Source of the DNA: Gemmatimonadota bacterium
GTDB taxonomy: Bacteria; Gemmatimonadota; Gemmatimonadetes; Longimicrobiales; Gaopeijiaceae
NCBI GenBank assembly: GCA_030428885.1
Contig: JAUIEJ010000004.1
Location: 372,001-436,000, forward strand
Direction: 5' to 3'
Length of the DNA stretch: 64,000 bases
Shown one piece after another: positions 6,934-16,454 of this stretch. The translations under genes were made by a program, and so were the position numbers. Positions within the stretch are counted from its first letter, which is position 1. The number at the start of each line of letters is the position of its first letter. The notes under the pieces were generated by a model. The model made no database searches, had not been told where the DNA came from, and saw only the letters and a program-made list of their open reading frames with translations.

Positions 6934-7287
6934 GTGACGACCCCCGATCCCGAGAGCTTCCTGCCCCTGACGCCGCCGGAGTTCCACGTGCTCCTGGCCC
7001 TGGGCGACGAGGCCCTCCACGGCTACGCCATGATGCAGTCCCTCGCCGAGAAGACCGGCGGCCGGGAAGCGCTTCTGCCGGGCACCCTCTACACGACGGT
7101 GGCCCGCATGGTGAAACGGGGCCTCCTGGACGAGTTGGACGAGGCGCCCCGCCCCGACGCCGATCGCCGGCGCCGCTACTACCGGGTGTCGCCCCTGGGA
7201 CGCGCCGTGGCCCGGGCCGAGTCGGCCCGTCTCCGGCGCCTGCTGACGGTGGCCGAACGGGAATCCCTGGTGCCGGGCGAAGGATGA
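6934..7287 (+). CDS. PadR family transcriptional regulator
   Basis: 117 residues starting at GTG 6934. The winged-helix PadR fold is clear: PPEFHVLLALGDEALHGYAMMQ, LPGTLYTTVARMVKRGLLDE and the wing DADRRRRYYRVSPLGR. It has no long C-terminal dimerisation helix beyond a short tail, as in PadR-s1 type proteins. Its stop overlaps the start of the ADOP permease gene (ATGA at 7284-7287), the standard arrangement of PadR-ADOP pairs. It most likely represses its own operon through the palindrome around 6887-6909 and responds to an unknown ligand. Confidence 0.92.
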   Translation: MTTPDPESFLPLTPPEFHVLLALGDEALHGYAMMQSLAEKTGGREALLPGTLYTTVARMVKRGLLDELDEAPRPDADRRRRYYRVSPLGRAVARAESARLRRLLTVAERESLVPGEG

Positions 7288-10022
7288 AACGGGTCGCGGC
7301 GGCCCTCTACCGGGGGGCGCTCCGTCTCCAGCCCCGGTGGATCCGGGAGGGGTGGGGCGAGGAGATGCTGAGGGACTTCGTGGCGGGGCTGGACGACCGT
7401 TCGGGCCGGGTCGAGTCCCTGGCCTGGACGGGCCGGAACCTGGTCGACGTGATGAGAAATGGACTGCGGGAACGCCGCCGGGGGACTCCGCCTCCGCCCG
7501 GCCTGCCCGCGCCGACGGGAGGGGGAGGAATGGGACACCGGGACGTATGGATGGACGCCCGCGTGGCGGTGCGGAGCCTGCGGCGCACGCCGGGATTCAC
7601 CCTGGCGGCCGTGGCGATCCTGGCTCTGGGCATCGGGGCCAACACGGCCCTCTTCTCGGCGCTGCGGGGGGCCCTGCTCACGCCGCCGCCCTTCCCGGAC
7701 CCGGAGCGCATCGTCCTCCTGGACCTCACCGACTCGTCCACCGTGGAGCCTGAACGCTCGGGCCCCATGCCGTGGTCGTACCCGAAGTACCGGGTCCTGG
7801 CCGAAGCCGACGAGCTGCCCCTCACCGCCCGGGCGGCCTTCGCCGTGCGCAACCTGACCCTCACGGGCGCCGGCGATGCGGCGGTGCTTCCGGTGGAGGT
7901 GGCCACGCCGGAGTACCTCGACGTCCTGGGGGTCACCCCCGTCCAGGGACGGGGTTTCGCCCCCGACGACGACCGGGAGGGGGCCGCACTGGTGGCCCTG
8001 GTGTCCCACGGCGAGTGGAGCGGGCGCTTCGGCGGTGCCGACGACCTGGTGGGGCGCGACGTGACGCTGGAAGGCCGGCCGGTCACCGTGGTGGGAATCC
8101 TCCCCGACGGCTTCACCGGGCTGTCGGGCCAGGGGCGGTACTGGATCACTCCCCACGCCGCCGCCCAGCTGATCCGGCCGTTCATGGTCACCGCGGCCCA
8201 GGCCCACTGGATGCAGGGGGTGGGACGCATGGGCACCGGCGTCGGCCTCGAGACCGTGCGGGACGCCATGGCCGGCGTGGGGCGGGCAGCCGAGGCCGTG
8301 GCGCCCAGCGACGACCCCACCACGATCCGGTCGGGCACGGCCCGGAGCCTCATGGACGTCCGGGTGGGCGAGCGGGCGCGCCGCTCCCTGCTGGTCCTGG
8401 TCCTGGCCTCGGGGCTGCTGCTCCTGGTGGCCTGCGCCAATCTGGGGGGACTGCTCCTGGCCCGGTCCACGGCCCGTCGCCGGGAGTCGGCGGTGCGAGC
8501 CGCCCTGGGTGCCGGGCGGTGGCGGGTGGCCCGGGGCCATCTGGTGGAGAGCCTGGTGCTCGCCCTGGCCGGGGGGGCCGCCTCGGTGGGAGTCGCCTGG
8601 GCCGCCTCGACCTGGCTGACCCGGGTGTGGCCGTCCCGATCCCTGAGCGACGCCTGGAACGTGGACGTCGTGGGGTTGGGAGCGGCCGCCCCGGGCCTCT
8701 GGACCGTGGCGTTCGCCGCGGGCCTTTCGGTGGTGGTGGGACTGCTCCTCGGTCTGATCCCCGTCGTGGCCTCGGCCCGGGCCCGCCCGGCCGACCACCT
8801 CCGGGAGGGCACCGTGGGTCGGCGGGCCACCTCGGGGCGGGGCGTGCGGGGGGCGCTGGTGGCCGGGGAGATCGCCGTGGCCCTGGTGCTCATCGTGGGC
8901 GCCGGGCTGCTGCTCCGGTCCCTCCAGGCCCTGAACGACGTGGACCGGGGCTACACCCCGGGCCGGCTCCTCACCTTCCAGCTCCGCACGCCGGCGTCCA
9001 GCGTCTGGGCCGACGACCCCGCGGCGTTCCACGAACAGGTGGAGACGCGCCTGGCGGCGCTCCCCGAGGTCCAGGCCGTGGGGATGGGCTGCGTGGCCCC
9101 CGTGTCGGGGCACTGCATGATCACGGGTGTGCGGCAGGCGGGCGAACGCACGTGGAGCGAAGGCGACCGGCCGGGCATCGGCGTGCACTACGTGACCGAC
9201 GCCTGGTTCGAGACGCTGGGCGTCGAGACGCTCCGGGGGCGGACCTTCGATTCCCGGGACCAACGGGGCTCGGCCCCGGCGGTGGTGCTGAGCGAGGCCG
9301 CCGCCCGGGAGCTCTTTCCCGACGGCGACGCCGTGGGAAACCGCATCGCCATGGGGGTGACCCTCACGTCCGAGTCGTCCGGCGCCACCGCCGAGGTGGT
9401 GGGGGTCGTGGGCGACGTGCTGTACGACCGCCCGGAAAACGGCCTCATGGCCGAGGCCTACATCAGCCACCGGCAGGAGGACAGCTACGGCACCTTCGTG
9501 ATCCGCACCCGGGGCGAACCCCTGGCGGTGGTGCCGGCGCTGCGGGCGGCCATCCGTGAGATCGAACCCGACGCCCCCCTCATGTCGCTCCGCACGGTGG
9601 CCGCGGCCGAGGCGTCGGTGACCGCCGACACCCGCATGGTGGGCCTGCTTTTGCTGGCCTTCGCCGGCCTGGCGCTGCTCCTGGCCTGCACCGGGGTGTG
9701 GGCCGCCGTGGCGTTCACCGTGTCCCGCCGCACTCGGGAGTTCGGCCTCCGCCTCGCCCTGGGCGCCCGTCCGGGACAGGTGGTGGGCTCGGTGGTGCGA
9801 GGCGGGCTGCTCACGGCCCTCCTGGGCATCGGCGTGGGGATCGGCGCGGCGTGGTACGGGGCCCGGATCCTGGACGCCCTCCTCTTCGAAGTGGGGGTGG
9901 GCGACCCGGTGGCCTTCGCCGGCGGCGCCGGCGTGCTCCTGGCCGTGGCCCTGGCCGCGGCGTGGCTCCCGGCCCGGCGGGTCACCCGGGTCGACCCCGT
10001 GTCGAGCCTCAGGTCGGAGTGA
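7284..10022 (+). CDS. ADOP family permease (MacB/FtsX-like, duplicated)
   Basis: A 912-residue membrane protein. A soluble N-terminal helical segment (about 1-75) precedes the first MacB-type unit starting at LRRTPGFTLAAVAILALGIGANTALFSAL. This is followed by a large periplasmic MacB_PCD domain, an FtsX-type three-helix bundle (about 365-490), then a second periplasmic domain and a final FtsX unit ending in the LP-rich PARRVTRVDPVSSLRSE tail. This duplicated permease without its own ATPase is the acidobacterial duplicated orphan permease family, common in Acidobacteria and Gemmatimonadota. It probably couples to a separate ABC ATPase. Substrate unknown. Its 3' end overlaps the convergent gene by 14 bp. 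Confidence 0.92.
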   Translation: MKRVAAALYRGALRLQPRWIREGWGEEMLRDFVAGLDDRSGRVESLAWTGRNLVDVMRNGLRERRRGTPPPPGLPAPTGGGGMGHRDVWMDARVAVRSLRRTPGFTLAAVAILALGIGANTALFSALRGALLTPPPFPDPERIVLLDLTDSSTVEPERSGPMPWSYPKYRVLAEADELPLTARAAFAVRNLTLTGAGDAAVLPVEVATPEYLDVLGVTPVQGRGFAPDDDREGAALVALVSHGEWSGRFGGADDLVGRDVTLEGRPVTVVGILPDGFTGLSGQGRYWITPHAAAQLIRPFMVTAAQAHWMQGVGRMGTGVGLETVRDAMAGVGRAAEAVAPSDDPTTIRSGTARSLMDVRVGERARRSLLVLVLASGLLLLVACANLGGLLLARSTARRRESAVRAALGAGRWRVARGHLVESLVLALAGGAASVGVAWAASTWLTRVWPSRSLSDAWNVDVVGLGAAAPGLWTVAFAAGLSVVVGLLLGLIPVVASARARPADHLREGTVGRRATSGRGVRGALVAGEIAVALVLIVGAGLLLRSLQALNDVDRGYTPGRLLTFQLRTPASSVWADDPAAFHEQVETRLAALPEVQAVGMGCVAPVSGHCMITGVRQAGERTWSEGDRPGIGVHYVTDAWFETLGVETLRGRTFDSRDQRGSAPAVVLSEAAARELFPDGDAVGNRIAMGVTLTSESSGATAEVVGVVGDVLYDRPENGLMAEAYISHRQEDSYGTFVIRTRGEPLAVVPALRAAIREIEPDAPLMSLRTVAAAEASVTADTRMVGLLLLAFAGLALLLACTGVWAAVAFTVSRRTREFGLRLALGARPGQVVGSVVRGGLLTALLGIGVGIGAAWYGARILDALLFEVGVGDPVAFAGGAGVLLAVALAAAWLPARRVTRVDPVSSLRSE

Positions 10023-12246
10023 GGGCCGGCGGGGCGGTCCAGAAGGCCACCACCCCGCACCGGTCTCCCGGCCCCAGGAGGTCGATGGGCACGCGGCCGC
10101 CTCGGTGGACCTCCACGGCCTGGAGGTCCTCGAGGCGGAGGTGGGTCACGTCATACGGGCGGGCCGCGCCGGCGTCCACGCCGCTCACCCGAAGGCCGTC
10201 GATCCACACCGCCGGCCGACATCCCCTCTCGGTGAGGAGTCCCACCCGGTCGAACCGCACGCCCTCCCGCTCCAGGAGGGCCCGGAGCCCCAGGGCCCGC
10301 TCCCGGGCCAACTGCTCGGGCCCCACGACCTGGAGCGGGTAGGTGCGAAAGCGGTCGCCCAGGGCCCGCCACGCCATGGACTCCCGCGCCGCCACCTCCA
10401 CCGTGAGTCCCTCGAGCTCGAAGGCCCGGGGGGCCAGGTGCACGTCGAACTCCGCCAGGGTCCCCGAAGCCACCCGCACCGTGTCTTCGAACGCCACGTA
10501 GCCCAGCGCCTCCACCCGCAGGATCCGGTCGCCGGAACGGAGTCCCCCGATGTGCGCGACGCCGCCGTCGTCGGCCGTGGTCACCGCATCGTCGACCCAC
10601 ACGGCCGCCGACCCCACCGGTCGACCGGTGTCGAGGTCCAGGGCCTGCACCCGGACCGCCGTCGTGCCCCGGGGCTCCTCGGCCACGGGCCTCGTGAGGG
10701 GCACGGACCTGTGCCCCGTGCCCCCCCCGATCTCCACGGGGGCGAACCCGGCGACCGTGACCCGTACGGCGTCATCGGCCCCGCAGAGGGTGACGCCGCC
10801 GTCCCGGTCCACGGCGGTGCGCCCGAGGGAGCCGGTGCGCGAGATCCGGACGGCCACCGACGTCCCGGGAGCCACGAGCCCCCGGGGCGCCGTCAGTTCG
10901 AGCCACAGTCCCCCGGCGGGGCAGACGTCCAACCGCCGCTCCCAGGCCTCCCGCAGACGGAGGTCCAGGGCCGGGGTCGAGCCCTCGGTCACGTCCACCG
11001 CCGCCTCGGCCCACACCGCCGGGTCGGCGGCGTGGACCGCCCGGACGGTGTAGCGGCCCGCCGGAAGCGGCGGGAGCCGAAAGGCACCGTCCCGGGTCAA
11101 GGCGAGCTCGGACGGCCCCCCCACCACGTCGATGCGGGTGCCGTCGGGGGCGGGGCCTCCTCCGGGACGCTCCACCCGACCCACCACCACCCCCGAGCCG
11201 GCGTCGAAGACCGGCTCCCCCCGGTCGGTGGCGGCGGCCACGAGCCGCCCCCCGAACTCGTGGACGGCCCGCACCCGGATCCGGCGATCGTCCAGGAGGC
11301 TGCCGCCCTCCACCACCTCGATCTCGGGCACCGTCAGGGTCCACCCTCCCACCACCACGCGGCCGTCCGGGAGCCGGGTGAACCGCAACGACCCCGTGGC
11401 CTCCCCGCCCTGTCCCCGCCACCGCTCGTCCCGGTAGACGAGAGAGAGCTCCAGGAGGTCGGACCCGTCGGCGGCGAGCCAGAAGACGCCCGTGAGGTCG
11501 CCGTCCCGCCGGGGCCGGAACCGGAGCCCCAGGCGCCCGTCGGCCCGGGCGTCCACCACGTCCAGACAGAACTGCTCCTGAAACGACGGGCTCCCCAATA
11601 CCCGGTCGTCGGGGGCCAGAAACACCACCGAGTCCCCCTCCTCCCGGATGAACCGGGTCACGCCTTCGGGGGCGGGGGTCAGCCCCACGAAGGGCCGTCC
11701 CCCCCGGCGCCGGGCCAGCTCGAAGGTCTCGTCTTCGACCCGCACGCCGTCGGGGGCCAGGCGGCGGCGGAATTCCTGGACGTCGTAGCGCAGCGGCACC
11801 CCGTCGTCTCGGCCCGCCACGGCGTACGCCTCGATCACCTGGAGCCAGAGGGCCGCCAGGGCGGGGGTGTCGCCCAGCGTCCGACCGCGGCACTCGGTCT
11901 CGCCCGTGGCCACCAGCGCGTCGAGTTCGAACGGACGAGGCCGGATCCGGATCTCGGCGAAGGCGTCGGGATCGGCGAGGGCGTACCGCACGGGTGCGTA
12001 GCCGAGGCGGGTCACCCGGAGGGCGGTCGCCGCCCCGGCGTCCAGCACGAATCGCCCGGCGGCGTCGGAGAGGGCCCGGGCCCCGTCGGCCCCGGCGCCG
12101 TTCACCGCCACCACCGACGCCGACGGCACGGGCAGGCCGGTCTCCCCGTCCACCACCCGCCCCACCACCGGCCCCTGTCCCCACACCGGGCCGGCCAGAA
12201 CGAACACGGCTCCCAGCAGTCCCATCACCCGACGGTGGTGCCTCAC
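10009..12246 (-). CDS. Secreted carboxypeptidase-regulatory/TonB-plug-like protein without a barrel
   Basis: 745 residues from GTG 12246, which has a good GGGGGAGGG site upstream and begins a signal peptide (MGLLGAVFVLAGPVWGQ). An N-terminal CarboxypepD_reg beta-sandwich (GRVVDGETGLPVPSASVVAV) is followed by a long unknown middle region (ETECRGRTLGD, EFRRRLAPDG, FCLDVVDAR), two more regulatory-type beta domains, and a C-terminal plug-like segment (LEGLTVEVAARES, WIDGLRVSG, EVHRGGRVP, CGVVAFWT). TonB receptors have a 22-strand barrel after such a plug; here there is none. It is probably periplasmic or surface-associated. A shorter relative is at 39275-40042. Confidence 0.75.
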   Translation of the reverse strand: MRHHRRVMGLLGAVFVLAGPVWGQGPVVGRVVDGETGLPVPSASVVAVNGAGADGARALSDAAGRFVLDAGAATALRVTRLGYAPVRYALADPDAFAEIRIRPRPFELDALVATGETECRGRTLGDTPALAALWLQVIEAYAVAGRDDGVPLRYDVQEFRRRLAPDGVRVEDETFELARRRGGRPFVGLTPAPEGVTRFIREEGDSVVFLAPDDRVLGSPSFQEQFCLDVVDARADGRLGLRFRPRRDGDLTGVFWLAADGSDLLELSLVYRDERWRGQGGEATGSLRFTRLPDGRVVVGGWTLTVPEIEVVEGGSLLDDRRIRVRAVHEFGGRLVAAATDRGEPVFDAGSGVVVGRVERPGGGPAPDGTRIDVVGGPSELALTRDGAFRLPPLPAGRYTVRAVHAADPAVWAEAAVDVTEGSTPALDLRLREAWERRLDVCPAGGLWLELTAPRGLVAPGTSVAVRISRTGSLGRTAVDRDGGVTLCGADDAVRVTVAGFAPVEIGGGTGHRSVPLTRPVAEEPRGTTAVRVQALDLDTGRPVGSAAVWVDDAVTTADDGGVAHIGGLRSGDRILRVEALGYVAFEDTVRVASGTLAEFDVHLAPRAFELEGLTVEVAARESMAWRALGDRFRTYPLQVVGPEQLARERALGLRALLEREGVRFDRVGLLTERGCRPAVWIDGLRVSGVDAGAARPYDVTHLRLEDLQAVEVHRGGRVPIDLLGPGDRCGVVAFWTAPPALTPT

Positions 12247-12407
12247 GAACCCTCCCCCATGCGGTGGTTCCCCTGCGACGCCCACGAGTACGGCCGCCAT
12301 TCCGGGATCTTTCGCGGGCTTTTTCTCTTTCGTGATCGCGCGGACTCGTCCCATGATTCGAAATGAACGGCCTTTGCGCCTCGAGCTCCTCCCGCGAGAG
12401 CACGCAC

Positions 12408-14939
12408 ATGTTCGACCATGCCCGTATGATCCGCTCCGGGTTCGCCCTGCTGGGTACCGCCCTCCTCCTCACCGCCTGCGGCGGCGACGACGGCAGCGGA
12501 CCCTCGCCTGACGACGACCCGGTCCTCACGTCCGTCGGGGTGTCGCCCACCACCGGAACGCTGGCGTCCCTCGGCGCCACCACCCAGTTGGCCGCCGCAC
12601 CCCGCGACGAAAACGGCGCGGCCTTCTCCGGCGCCTCGGTGTCGTGGTCGTCGTCGGCCGCCGGGGTGGCCGACGTGGACGCCTCGGGGTTGGTCACAGC
12701 CGTATCCGAAGGGACCACCACCATCACCGCCACGGCGTCGGCCGACGGCCGCACGGTGACGGGCACCGCCCAGATCACCGTCGACCAGGAAGCCGCCACG
12801 GTGACGTTGACGGCGCCCGAGACCAGTCTCACGTCGGGGGCCACCATGCAGCTCTCGGCCACCTCGGCCGACGCCAACGGCAACGCCCTGGCCGGCGCCA
12901 CCTACACCTTCCAGTCGTCCGACGAGGGCGTGGCCACGGTGGACGCCTCGGGGCTGGTGACGGCGGCGTCGCAGGGCATCACCACCCTGAGCGCCAGCCT
13001 GGACGGAGCCTCCGATACGGCCGAACTGACGGTGGTGGTGGGCGACGTCACCTTCAGCGAAGACGCCACGGTGTCGGGCACCCTGGAGGCCGCCACCCTC
13101 ACCATCGAGGCCGGGGTCACGGTGACCATGGCCGACGACGTGGTGATCAACGCCCAGGACGCCATCACCCTCGACGGGTCGCTGGAAGGGGACTGCGTGG
13201 CGGTGGCGGTGAACGGCGGCGCCGGGATGACCATGACCGGCACCATCGCCAACCACTGCTCGGCCGGCGCCACGGGGCCGGGCATCGCCGTCCAGGTGGC
13301 CGGGGCCCTGGTGATGAACGGGGCCACCCTCCAGTCCACCGGCGACATCGACATCGCCAACGACGGTACGGCGTCCGCATCGACGGTGGGAGGCCTGGCC
13401 CAGGTGGCCGATCGGCCCTGCACCTTCCAGTCGGTGCTCCTGGTGAAGCTGCCCAACCAGGCCGGGACGGGGATGGACGGAAGCCCCATCGGCATCAAGT
13501 GCGTCAACGACGCCACCTTCGTGGGCGGAAACCAGATCCAGGCCCAGGACGGCGGCGACGGCATGAACGATCAGGTGCCCGCCACCATGGCCACCGGGGG
13601 ACCGGCCGGTCGCGGCGGAGACGTCCTCATCCAGGTCGACGACGGCGACGCCCTCTTCCAGAACAACACCTTCGGCGGCGCCCAGGGCACGGGGCTCGTG
13701 AGCGGACTCGGCGGGGCCGGCGGCGACGCCGACGCCCTGGGAGTCGATGCCGATCCCGACGCCACGGCCAACGGGGGCACCGGCGGCAACGGCGGGGACA
13801 TCATGATCCAGGTTCCCAACGGCACGGTGACCATCGACGGGCTGGGCGGACTCCGCATCGACGTGGGCGACGGGGGCCGGGGCGGCGACGCCTTCGCCTC
13901 GGGGTGGGACGGAGACGATCCCAGTGAAAACGGCGGCGCCGCCACGGCCAAGGGCGGCAACGGGGGCGACTCGGGGCTGCCCGCCATCGGCTCCAGCGGC
14001 GCGCCGCCGGCGGGCCTGACCAACATCATCCAGACCGGCGGCAACGGCGGGCGGGGAGGCCATGCCACGGCGTGGGGCGGCATCGGCGCCGACGGCGACG
14101 CCACCTCCACCCCCGGCGGCGAGGGCGGCGACATGCTGGCCGAAGGCGGAACGGGCGGCACGGCGCGAGACGACGCCACCGCCGCACCGCGGCCCGAGGG
14201 ACTGGCGGCGGTGCCGCTGGGGATCGGCGGCGACGGCGGAGACGCCAACTTCGACTTCGGCCAGGGCGGGTTCGGCGCCGACATGTGCTGGGTCGGGCCC
14301 GGCGGGGCCGGCGGTCTGGGCGGCGACGGCACGGGCTTCGCCGGAGCCGGCGGAGACGGCGGCGGCTTCTCGGGCACCATCACCGTGGCCGACCACACCG
14401 GAGACGGCGGCGGCGGCGGCGACGGCATGGGGGCCGGCCCCGGCGGGAACGGGGGCACGCCCAACATTCCCACGGGCGTGGGCGCCCAGTGGCCCACGGC
14501 CTTCAATCCCGCGGGCCCGGGGATCGACTGCGCCGTCATCATCGAGATCATCGGGTCGATCCTGAGCGACCCCAGCGGCCACGAGCCGTTCATCCAGCTC
14601 CTCAACGCCCTGGACGCCCTGACGGCCCGGTTCTTCGGGTCGGCGGTGGGCGCGCCGGGTGCCGCGCCCAACACGGCGGCCACGGGCACCGTGGTGATCG
14701 AGGGGAACGGAAACTGGGTCGCCGTCACCGGAACCCTGCAGGACGACGGCTCGTTCTCGGGAACGGGCACGGGAACGGTGGCGGGCTTCCCCAACGTCAG
14801 CGTGACCTTCACCGGCACCATCGACTTCGACGAGACCACCGGCGCGCCGGTGTCGATCACGGGCACCTACACCATGGGGGCCGGGGGCGAACTGCCCGGC
14901 GGCAACCCGGCGGTCTACACCATCGGGCCGTCGTCGTAG
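12408..14939 (+). CDS. Large Ig-like lipoprotein with glycine-rich PGRS-like repeats
   Basis: 843 residues from ATG 12408. A signal peptide ends in lipobox LLTACGG. Two bacterial Ig-like (BIG2) domains follow (about 30-125 and 126-215; each has a VATVDASGLVTA-type motif), then a short-repeat beta-solenoid-like segment (TVSGTLEAATLTIEAG). Roughly residues 385-690 are dominated by GGxGG(D/N) repeats such as GGTGGNGGD and GGNGGRGGHATAWGG. The last 130 residues form a non-repetitive domain (GTVVIEGNGNWVAVTG, AGFPNVSVTFTGTIDFD). The layout suggests a surface-exposed, possibly calcium-binding fibrous or adhesive protein; the function is unknown. A strong hairpin terminator follows. Confidence 0.8.
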   Translation: MFDHARMIRSGFALLGTALLLTACGGDDGSGPSPDDDPVLTSVGVSPTTGTLASLGATTQLAAAPRDENGAAFSGASVSWSSSAAGVADVDASGLVTAVSEGTTTITATASADGRTVTGTAQITVDQEAATVTLTAPETSLTSGATMQLSATSADANGNALAGATYTFQSSDEGVATVDASGLVTAASQGITTLSASLDGASDTAELTVVVGDVTFSEDATVSGTLEAATLTIEAGVTVTMADDVVINAQDAITLDGSLEGDCVAVAVNGGAGMTMTGTIANHCSAGATGPGIAVQVAGALVMNGATLQSTGDIDIANDGTASASTVGGLAQVADRPCTFQSVLLVKLPNQAGTGMDGSPIGIKCVNDATFVGGNQIQAQDGGDGMNDQVPATMATGGPAGRGGDVLIQVDDGDALFQNNTFGGAQGTGLVSGLGGAGGDADALGVDADPDATANGGTGGNGGDIMIQVPNGTVTIDGLGGLRIDVGDGGRGGDAFASGWDGDDPSENGGAATAKGGNGGDSGLPAIGSSGAPPAGLTNIIQTGGNGGRGGHATAWGGIGADGDATSTPGGEGGDMLAEGGTGGTARDDATAAPRPEGLAAVPLGIGGDGGDANFDFGQGGFGADMCWVGPGGAGGLGGDGTGFAGAGGDGGGFSGTITVADHTGDGGGGGDGMGAGPGGNGGTPNIPTGVGAQWPTAFNPAGPGIDCAVIIEIIGSILSDPSGHEPFIQLLNALDALTARFFGSAVGAPGAAPNTAATGTVVIEGNGNWVAVTGTLQDDGSFSGTGTGTVAGFPNVSVTFTGTIDFDETTGAPVSITGTYTMGAGGELPGGNPAVYTIGPSS

Positions 14940-14967
14940 GGGCCGGTCACCCCGATCGAACAAAAAG

Positions 14968-15005
14968 ACGCGCCGCCCCGGGGTCGATCCCCCGGGGCGG
15001 CGCGT
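14968..15005. terminator. Bidirectional intrinsic terminator between convergent genes
   Basis: A perfect 16-bp GC-rich stem (14968-14983 pairs with 14990-15005) closes a 6-base loop. AAAAAG precedes it on the plus strand, giving a U-tract for minus-strand transcripts, and TTT follows it. It lies between the convergent lipoprotein and outer-membrane genes and can serve both. Confidence 0.9.
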
Positions 15006-15029
15006 TTCGTCGGGCGGTCGGTGCCGCGG

Positions 15030-16349
15030 TCAGCGCCCGCCGCCGCCGCCCCCGCCGAACCCGAAGCCCCCACCGCCGCCGCCGAAGCGGTTGTTCACCA
15101 CGTTGTTGAAGATGGAGCCGAACTGGAGGGAGAAGCCCACCTGAACGCCGTAGTTGAAGCTCTGGGAGCGGCGCACCAGGTCCAGGAGTTCCTCGGCCGA
15201 CGAGGCCTCGTCGGCCGAGAGGTAGATCTGGTCGTTCACCCACCCCACGTTGGCCTCGGCATTGACGCTGAAGCCCCGCACCACGCGGAACTCCACGTCA
15301 CCCCGGAGGTTGACGTTGTAGAGATCCAGATCGTGGAGGAAGTGGGACGCCCGCACCGTGATGCCCGCGTCGCCCCACGGTTGGCGCTGGGAGAACTCGG
15401 CCTCGATGGACTCCTCCCATCGGGTCTCGTGCCACTCCTCGAAGACCGTCTTCTCGATGTAGTCCCGATAGGCCGGCCCGATCTGGTAGTAGAAGGTCAG
15501 AGCCCGGCGCGTCGCCTCGGCGTACGGAAAGACGCTGTACTCGATGGCCGGGGTGAATTCGGCCCGGAAGTCCTGATTGAAGCTCACGATGCGCCGCACT
15601 TCGGAGCGGAAGCCCACCGACCAGTGGTCGGCCAGGGCGTACACCACGGTCTGACTGAACCCGTAGTCCGTGCGCTCGTCGATGAAGTCGGGTTCGTCGG
15701 TGATCTCGATGCGGCGGCGGTTGTAGTTGATGCTGCCGTTGAGATTGATCTTCCAGGTGGGGCTCACCCGGTTGGCCGACACGAACGAGTTCACCCGGCG
15801 CGTGTCCCGGGTGTCCTCGCCGTCGACGTTGGCGCTACCGTTGATCCGGAAGACCCACAGGTTCCACGGGTCCTCCACCTGCTCCGCCGCCACGACCTCG
15901 GCCGCGGGGTCCACGCCGCCGGTGCGGAGTCCCTGGATCGCCACCAACCCCCGGAATCCGGCCTCGTTGGCGAAGCGGGCGAAGCCCACGGCCAGGGCGC
16001 CCGTGATTCCGTCGAGTTCCTCCCGGTCGGTGTCCGTGGGAAGCGTGCTGTAGCGAATCTGGTCGCTGTACCCCTCGTGGGCCCCCATGCCCACGAAGTC
16101 CATCTGGTACTCCCGTCCCCCGGCCCCCGTCCCCTGACTGGTGACGATGACGTGCACGTCGGAGTCCTGCCGATCCCGTACCCAGTTCACCCAGGCGATC
16201 TCGGTGCGGTAGTACTCGGAGTTGCAGTTGGGCCCCTCGCAATCGAAGAAGATCCGGGGCAATCCGGTGCCTCCTGCGCCCTGGGCCGCCACGGGCCCGG
16301 CGAGAAGGAGCCCGGCCAGGGCGAAGGCGTACGGTAGATGACGGCGCAT
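15030..16349 (-). CDS. Probable outer-membrane beta-barrel protein with polyglycine tail
   Basis: 439 residues from ATG 16349, chosen because it begins a clean signal peptide (MRRHLPYAFALAGLLLAGPVAAQ). After an N-terminal motif IFFDCEGPNCNSEYYRTEIAW, which holds two Cys, the protein has alternating hydrophobic strands of an outer-membrane barrel (for example WKINLNGSINYNRRRIEI, EYSVFPYAEATRRALTFYYQIG, DVEFRVVRGFSVNAEANVGW). The CEGPNC-S-Y-RTEI start is shared by a barrel family of unknown function. The C-terminus is unusual: after FGSIFNNVVNNRF come about 20 residues, nearly all Gly. Most barrels end with an aromatic beta-signal. The gene is not obviously in an operon. Confidence 0.8.
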   Translation of the reverse strand: MRRHLPYAFALAGLLLAGPVAAQGAGGTGLPRIFFDCEGPNCNSEYYRTEIAWVNWVRDRQDSDVHVIVTSQGTGAGGREYQMDFVGMGAHEGYSDQIRYSTLPTDTDREELDGITGALAVGFARFANEAGFRGLVAIQGLRTGGVDPAAEVVAAEQVEDPWNLWVFRINGSANVDGEDTRDTRRVNSFVSANRVSPTWKINLNGSINYNRRRIEITDEPDFIDERTDYGFSQTVVYALADHWSVGFRSEVRRIVSFNQDFRAEFTPAIEYSVFPYAEATRRALTFYYQIGPAYRDYIEKTVFEEWHETRWEESIEAEFSQRQPWGDAGITVRASHFLHDLDLYNVNLRGDVEFRVVRGFSVNAEANVGWVNDQIYLSADEASSAEELLDLVRRSQSFNYGVQVGFSLQFGSIFNNVVNNRFGGGGGGFGFGGGGGGGR

Positions 16350-16454
16350 ATCGGAGGGGTCGGGTTGTCGGAGCAGTTCGCCGAGGCGGGAGCGAGGTAC
16401 AGACCTAGCGCACACCCGGCGGCGAGAAACTGTTGAAGTCGCCCGGGAGCGGAG

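Follow-up and report, generated by a model that had tools for sequence, protein, structure and literature searches.

The analyzed window, a 64,000-nucleotide stretch of a Gemmatimonadota genome, carries on its forward strand a lipoprotein gene of 843 residues (12408..14939), delimited from the open frame, its translation, and the ATG positions in the DNA. The longest open frame (12363..14939, +, ATG) codes for 858 aa and is real, closed by a stop codon; judging from the sequence, a start codon at 12408 or 12426 is more likely than the in-frame ATG at 12363. The encoded protein has, in this order, a lipobox, two Big_2 domains, a β-solenoid-like part, a stretch with 33% glycine, and a small C-terminal β domain.

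Sequence inspection revealed a signal peptide with lipobox, MFDHARMIRSGFALLGTALLLTAC, at 12408..12479 (+). The lipobox, read by eye, is LLLTAC followed by GG (12465-12485), and the codon of the predicted lipid-attachment Cys lies at 12477-12479. The N-terminus predicted from either 12408 or 12426 is MFDHARMIRSGFALLGTALLLTAC followed by GGDD, and the acidic GGDDGSGPSPDDD comes directly behind the lipobox. Inspection of LLLTAC thus gave the bacterial lipoprotein pattern of a signal peptide and a lipobox ending in Cys, in line with the initial annotation of a surface-type lipoprotein. Where a relative's sequence includes the N-terminus, a comparable signal and Cys were found. The protein is probably an exported lipoprotein with predicted exposure on the outer surface. 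Acidic residues, CGGDDGSGPSPDDD, stand just behind the predicted lipid Cys (12477-12515), and several relatives have them as well (e.g., CGGDDDP and CGDDGGSD). Export signals are known in Bacteroidota lipoproteins, and the acidic stretch seen here is reminiscent of them.

The Pfam scan found Big_2 (PF02368) in two stretches with an E value of 2.3e-18 and 66.4 bits (cut-off 22.8), which bears out the two Ig-like domains annotated initially. The first lies at 12522..12785 (+, approximate limits) and the second at 12795..13034 (+, residues 145-224 of the 858-aa frame). No other family exceeded the cut-off in the scan of the whole protein. This N-terminal stalk differs among the members of the family described below, which carry Big_2, Big_1, or both ahead of the core. 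The source genome itself has 25 matches to the Big_2 stalk in all (E ≤ 0.001), on contigs C1, C13, C18, C22, and others; from these sequence matches, the genome appears to reuse the Ig stalk widely.

The search of whole genomes of the phylum picked up relatives of the region behind the Ig domains. Alignment of 10-11 members and a profile search delimited a conserved core domain of ~500 aa (13038..14546, +), composed of a β-solenoid start and ordered glycine blocks. The initial annotation had suggested looking for the same repeat class in Gemmatimonadota; with a profile of ten members, the core turned up in 13 of 395 genomes, which represent at least three families of the class. It sits behind different Ig stalks and ahead of different C-terminal domains. 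Identity among members is 30-50%, and the ten-member core alignment has ~62 invariant columns. All six invariant cysteines (codons at 13194, 13257, 13419, 13500, 14286, and 14529) are present in 11 of the 11 aligned members, and two of these cysteines lie within the glycine part or behind it.

A second copy of the core occurs in the source genome, in a 796-aa frame on a different contig. It is nearest to a member of another family (50% identity), so the two copies should be old paralogues or one of them was transferred; the core tree has long branches and poor resolution. The member in genome G303 (L047 / L060) has an internal TAA within the core, which may mark a pseudogene or stem from an error of assembly, and its neighborhood matches that of the uninterrupted copy in G381 (L059).

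Scanning the core alone against Pfam gave nothing significant (best E value 0.011, to DUF2807, in one member), and no match was found in NCBIfam, PHROGs, or PDB sequences. Searches with family patterns in two scans of genome contigs and one of viral contigs yielded no relative confirmed by tblastn, and neither did tblastn of plasmids and phages. Searches of this type penalize glycine-rich sequence, and therefore a restriction to Gemmatimonadota is not proven. Judged by these comparisons, the core is probably a domain family so far unnamed and without Pfam coverage.

In a congener (G069), a lipoprotein gene occupies the same site, between the genes for an OMP-like and a MacB-like protein, with the opposite orientation relative to them. 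Comparison of its locus (L051, 4308-11418) with window positions 7284-16415 gave no match to the carboxypeptidase-regulatory-like gene (window 10009-12354). This layout suggests that the locus was rearranged locally or that one site received independent insertions. The neighboring genes of G069 are 64-78% identical to those of the source, against about 39% for the core; the speA-like gene reaches 90% over the part inside the compared stretch. Other genomes of the genus have the OMP-like gene with no lipoprotein neighbor within the stretch compared. Outside the genus, the neighborhoods have no conserved partner gene, and hence no neighbor points to a function. By this comparison the lipoprotein gene seems to be an accessory gene that stands alone and diverges fast, a kind common among surface proteins. 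The OMP-like protein of the window (15030-16415, -) has a weak match to BBP2 porins and ends in a glycine-rich tail, NRFGGGGGGFGFGGGGGGGR; its gene is directly convergent with the lipoprotein gene, and the source genome has further copies of this family.

The glycine stretch of about 300 residues described initially at 13560-14480 is real: it has 307 residues, of which 102 are Gly (33%), 37 Ala, 33 Asp, and 23 Thr, with a nonrandom glycine spacing of 3 (autocorrelation z = 4.9 against shuffles). Period 3 was found in every one of ten family members, with z values of 2.7-5.4, and runs of at least three Gly at this spacing numbered 16 where 6.4 were expected. The description as long repeats did not hold, for the blocks, never longer than four triplets, mostly read GGxGG or GGxGGxGG; nor did the limits, the conserved unit being 13038-14546. 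The glycine-block region (13551..14456, +), defined by block coordinates, gap counts, and the order test described below, has conserved GGx blocks at 13551, 13596, 13710, 13773, 13872, 13953, 14079, 14145, 14220, 14301, 14334, 14406, and 14436, and an earlier weak one at 13464. A finer block definition gives 17, so that the number is ~14-17 according to the definition used. The Gly codons are mostly GGC, and the DNA of the region has no tandem array and only one 27-bp two-copy repeat. The pattern therefore belongs to the protein level and does not come from a recent expansion of DNA.

In the 11-member alignment, gaps make up 0.4% of the conserved glycine-block columns versus 22% elsewhere. For the order test, the glycine half of each relative was aligned with the same half cut into permuted pieces of 15-25 residues, and with its reversal. 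The true alignments scored 6.5-12.4 standard deviations above the permuted controls and far above the reversed ones, which shows that block order is conserved. With glycines masked, z fell to 0.1-5.7 and was weak in several relatives; most non-glycine positions seem to drift, as expected for outward side chains or loops. The possibility, raised initially, of repeats lacking conservation among relatives is contradicted by these ordered blocks and by the six invariant cysteines.

The linkers between blocks 1 to 8 have hydrophobic fractions of 0.26, 0.10, 0.36, 0.13, 0.42, 0.08, and 0.29, so that hydrophobic linkers (0.26, 0.36, 0.42, 0.29) alternate with polar ones (0.10, 0.13, 0.08). This is as expected if a β element, a glycine strand, a polar loop, and a second glycine strand followed each other before the next β element. 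The alternation fades past block 8, and the second half of the region is denser, with short linkers often fixed in length. The polar loops of the first half vary in length.

Structure prediction, also proposed at the outset, served one part of the protein and failed the other. AlphaFold, run with single sequences, modeled the first ~110 residues of the core (13038..13367, +) as a β-solenoid with pLDDT 60-90, as the initial annotation had anticipated, and left the whole glycine part undefined at about 30-40. Single-sequence models are often poor irrespective of the fold. When the solenoid start (~120 residues) was compared with solved folds, it aligned with bactofilin, ice-binding proteins, and pectate lyases at Z values of 7-9, generic matches that on this model assign it to the β-solenoid class and to nothing narrower. 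The C-terminal domain (14547..14936, +) was modeled, at moderate confidence, as a helix and a five-stranded β meander (mean pLDDT 61; strands 65-78). It has no Pfam match, and Foldseek searches with the models of the core and of the C-terminal domain gave no significant match. This β domain is common to about five members; one of the others has an ASH/HYDIN-like Ig domain, and the domains of the rest are unnamed.

Glycine-rich bundles of polyproline-II or polyglycine-II (PGII) helices occur in the snow flea antifreeze protein, ALK/LTK, PE_PGRS models, and phage proteins, as listed in PMC13243192. With the first two, the core has only the glycine-triplet pattern in common, and Pfam and PDB-sequence searches gave no sequence relationship to either. 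PE_PGRS proteins have been modeled as sandwiches of PGII helices with glycine facing inward (PMC9436101, PMC10216338). The lipoprotein resembles them in its GGx triplets, its predicted surface context, and unique C-terminal domains, and may share the PGII sandwich proposed for them. It differs in being anchored as a lipoprotein in another phylum, with neither a PE domain nor a GRPLI motif nor a type VII route, and in having a fixed set of ordered blocks where PE_PGRS arrays are polymorphic; the initial annotation had rightly called it PGRS-like in composition and not in context. Surface proteins with Big_2 and Big_1 have the same stalk domains (Big_2 here, Big_1 or both in relatives) but not the additional core domain, which lies outside Pfam.

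By analogy, the closest layout among known systems appears to be that of phage adhesin tips. In Salmonella phage S16, gp38 has ten glycine-rich motifs adjoining a β-helix domain; in cyanophage Pam3, gp24 bears 12 such motifs, two on each of six extended loops, which are conserved close to the stem but hypervariable in the tip (PMC9608196). Both combine a β scaffold, paired projecting glycine-rich motifs, and variable loops, as the core may do, with 10 and 12 motifs against its 14-17 blocks. Unlike the phage tips, the core has six Cys and is carried on Ig stalks by a cellular lipoprotein, and its PGII conformation is predicted from sequence. Comparisons with PHROGs, phage genomes, and PDB sequences returned no tail-fiber match, in searches whose composition filters may hide weak ones.

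Because the core has in its sequence the same ingredients as the phage adhesin tips, we favor a reading in which a PGII lattice built on a β-solenoid forms a rigid, adhesin-like head on an Ig stalk, and we consider the chances of its being right and wrong about equal. The PGII bundles first put forward are thus plausible and remain our preferred conformation. The exported protein would be tethered by lipid, with the Big Ig-like domains as a stalk holding the head off the membrane. The head would be rigid and pinned by disulfides, as the invariant Cys suggest. It would start as a β-solenoid and continue as a lattice of ~14-17 short glycine-triplet strands, most likely in PGII conformation. Pairs of strands would project from β elements, and polar loops that differ in sequence and length would join their far ends. 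The head would likely serve to bind or adhere to surfaces, polymers, or other cells by means of the variable loops and the exchangeable C-terminal domain.

The main rival is a continuous all-β solenoid, in which the glycine blocks would form tight turns, or else short rungs, in a right-handed β-helix with no PGII lattice, and which would still function as a head at the surface or as a module that binds glycans. Residues 1-110 of the core are modeled in this way, their nearest solved folds are mostly β-solenoids, and hydrophobic β-like linkers recur between the blocks. The strict spacing of 3 in GGxGGxGG, however, suits a three-residue helix better than the two-residue alternation of β strands, and the linkers are too variable in length for uniform rungs. 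We regard the all-β solenoid as a serious but secondary possibility. It is improbable that the region is a flexible, low-complexity spacer merely separating the Ig stalk from the C-terminal domain. The low pLDDT and the high content of Gly, Ala, and Asp would agree with disorder, but that pLDDT comes from a kind of model often poor for any fold, the blocks keep their order free of gaps across relatives at 30-50% identity, and two of the invariant cysteines fall inside or behind the glycine part.

The calcium-binding surface suggested initially would correspond to an RTX-like β-roll. Four GGxGxDxh matches occur in 13560-14480 (0.5 expected with glycines held fixed), and the region is acidic (34 D+E against 6 K+R). 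These matches are, however, 30, 81, and 97 residues apart and not tandem GGxGxDxUx nonapeptides at spacing 9; relatives carry 0-2 of them, in most cases none or a single one, no more than 7 columns keep Asp at ≥60%, and acidity is missing in some relatives (e.g., L030, with 15 D+E and 15 K+R). Calcium binding is therefore poorly supported, and we think a β-roll very unlikely. No more credible is an ice-binding or antifreeze protein, whether of the PGII type of the snow flea protein, with its glycine-rich bundles (cited in PMC13243192), or of the β-solenoid type of bacterial ice-binding proteins, with which the solenoid start aligns at Z of about 7-8. Such Z values are common to any β-solenoid, no ice-binding family was matched in Pfam, and the non-glycine positions of a would-be ice face are poorly conserved (21% identity), so that the support for this role is generic only. 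Least credible of all is descent from a PE_PGRS protein acquired from mycobacteria. The GGx composition is alike and nothing more: the N-terminus of the translation is a lipoprotein signal followed by Big_2 in place of a PE domain and GRPLI motif, the glycine part has no Pfam match, the blocks are fixed and not polymorphic, and there is an extended family within Gemmatimonadota. The Pfam PGRS model (PF21526) matched neither the genome nor the ten cores, and it was equally silent on the control genomes.

The initial interpretation was thus supported in part. Carrying the PGII-lattice reading further, we tentatively suggest, with somewhat less confidence than in that reading itself, a so far unnamed family with a hybrid fold, in which a β-solenoid leads into a PGII lattice of glycine strands with variable loops. 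In Gemmatimonadota lipoproteins it would act as the recognition head, in effect the cell's own equivalent of the glycine-rich adhesin tips of phages. A literature search for Gemmatimonadota lipoproteins and Ig-like surface domains found nothing, and the surface biology of the phylum appears little studied. Stretches rich in glycine are commonly written off as disordered or low-complexity; in this core, families of one phylum preserve both the order and the number of the glycine blocks. Should the PGII reading be correct, the core would add a new architecture to the natural PGII proteins, borne by a cellular lipoprotein whose stalk and tip are exchangeable, and its stable scaffold with variable loops would be of use in understanding or designing binding proteins.
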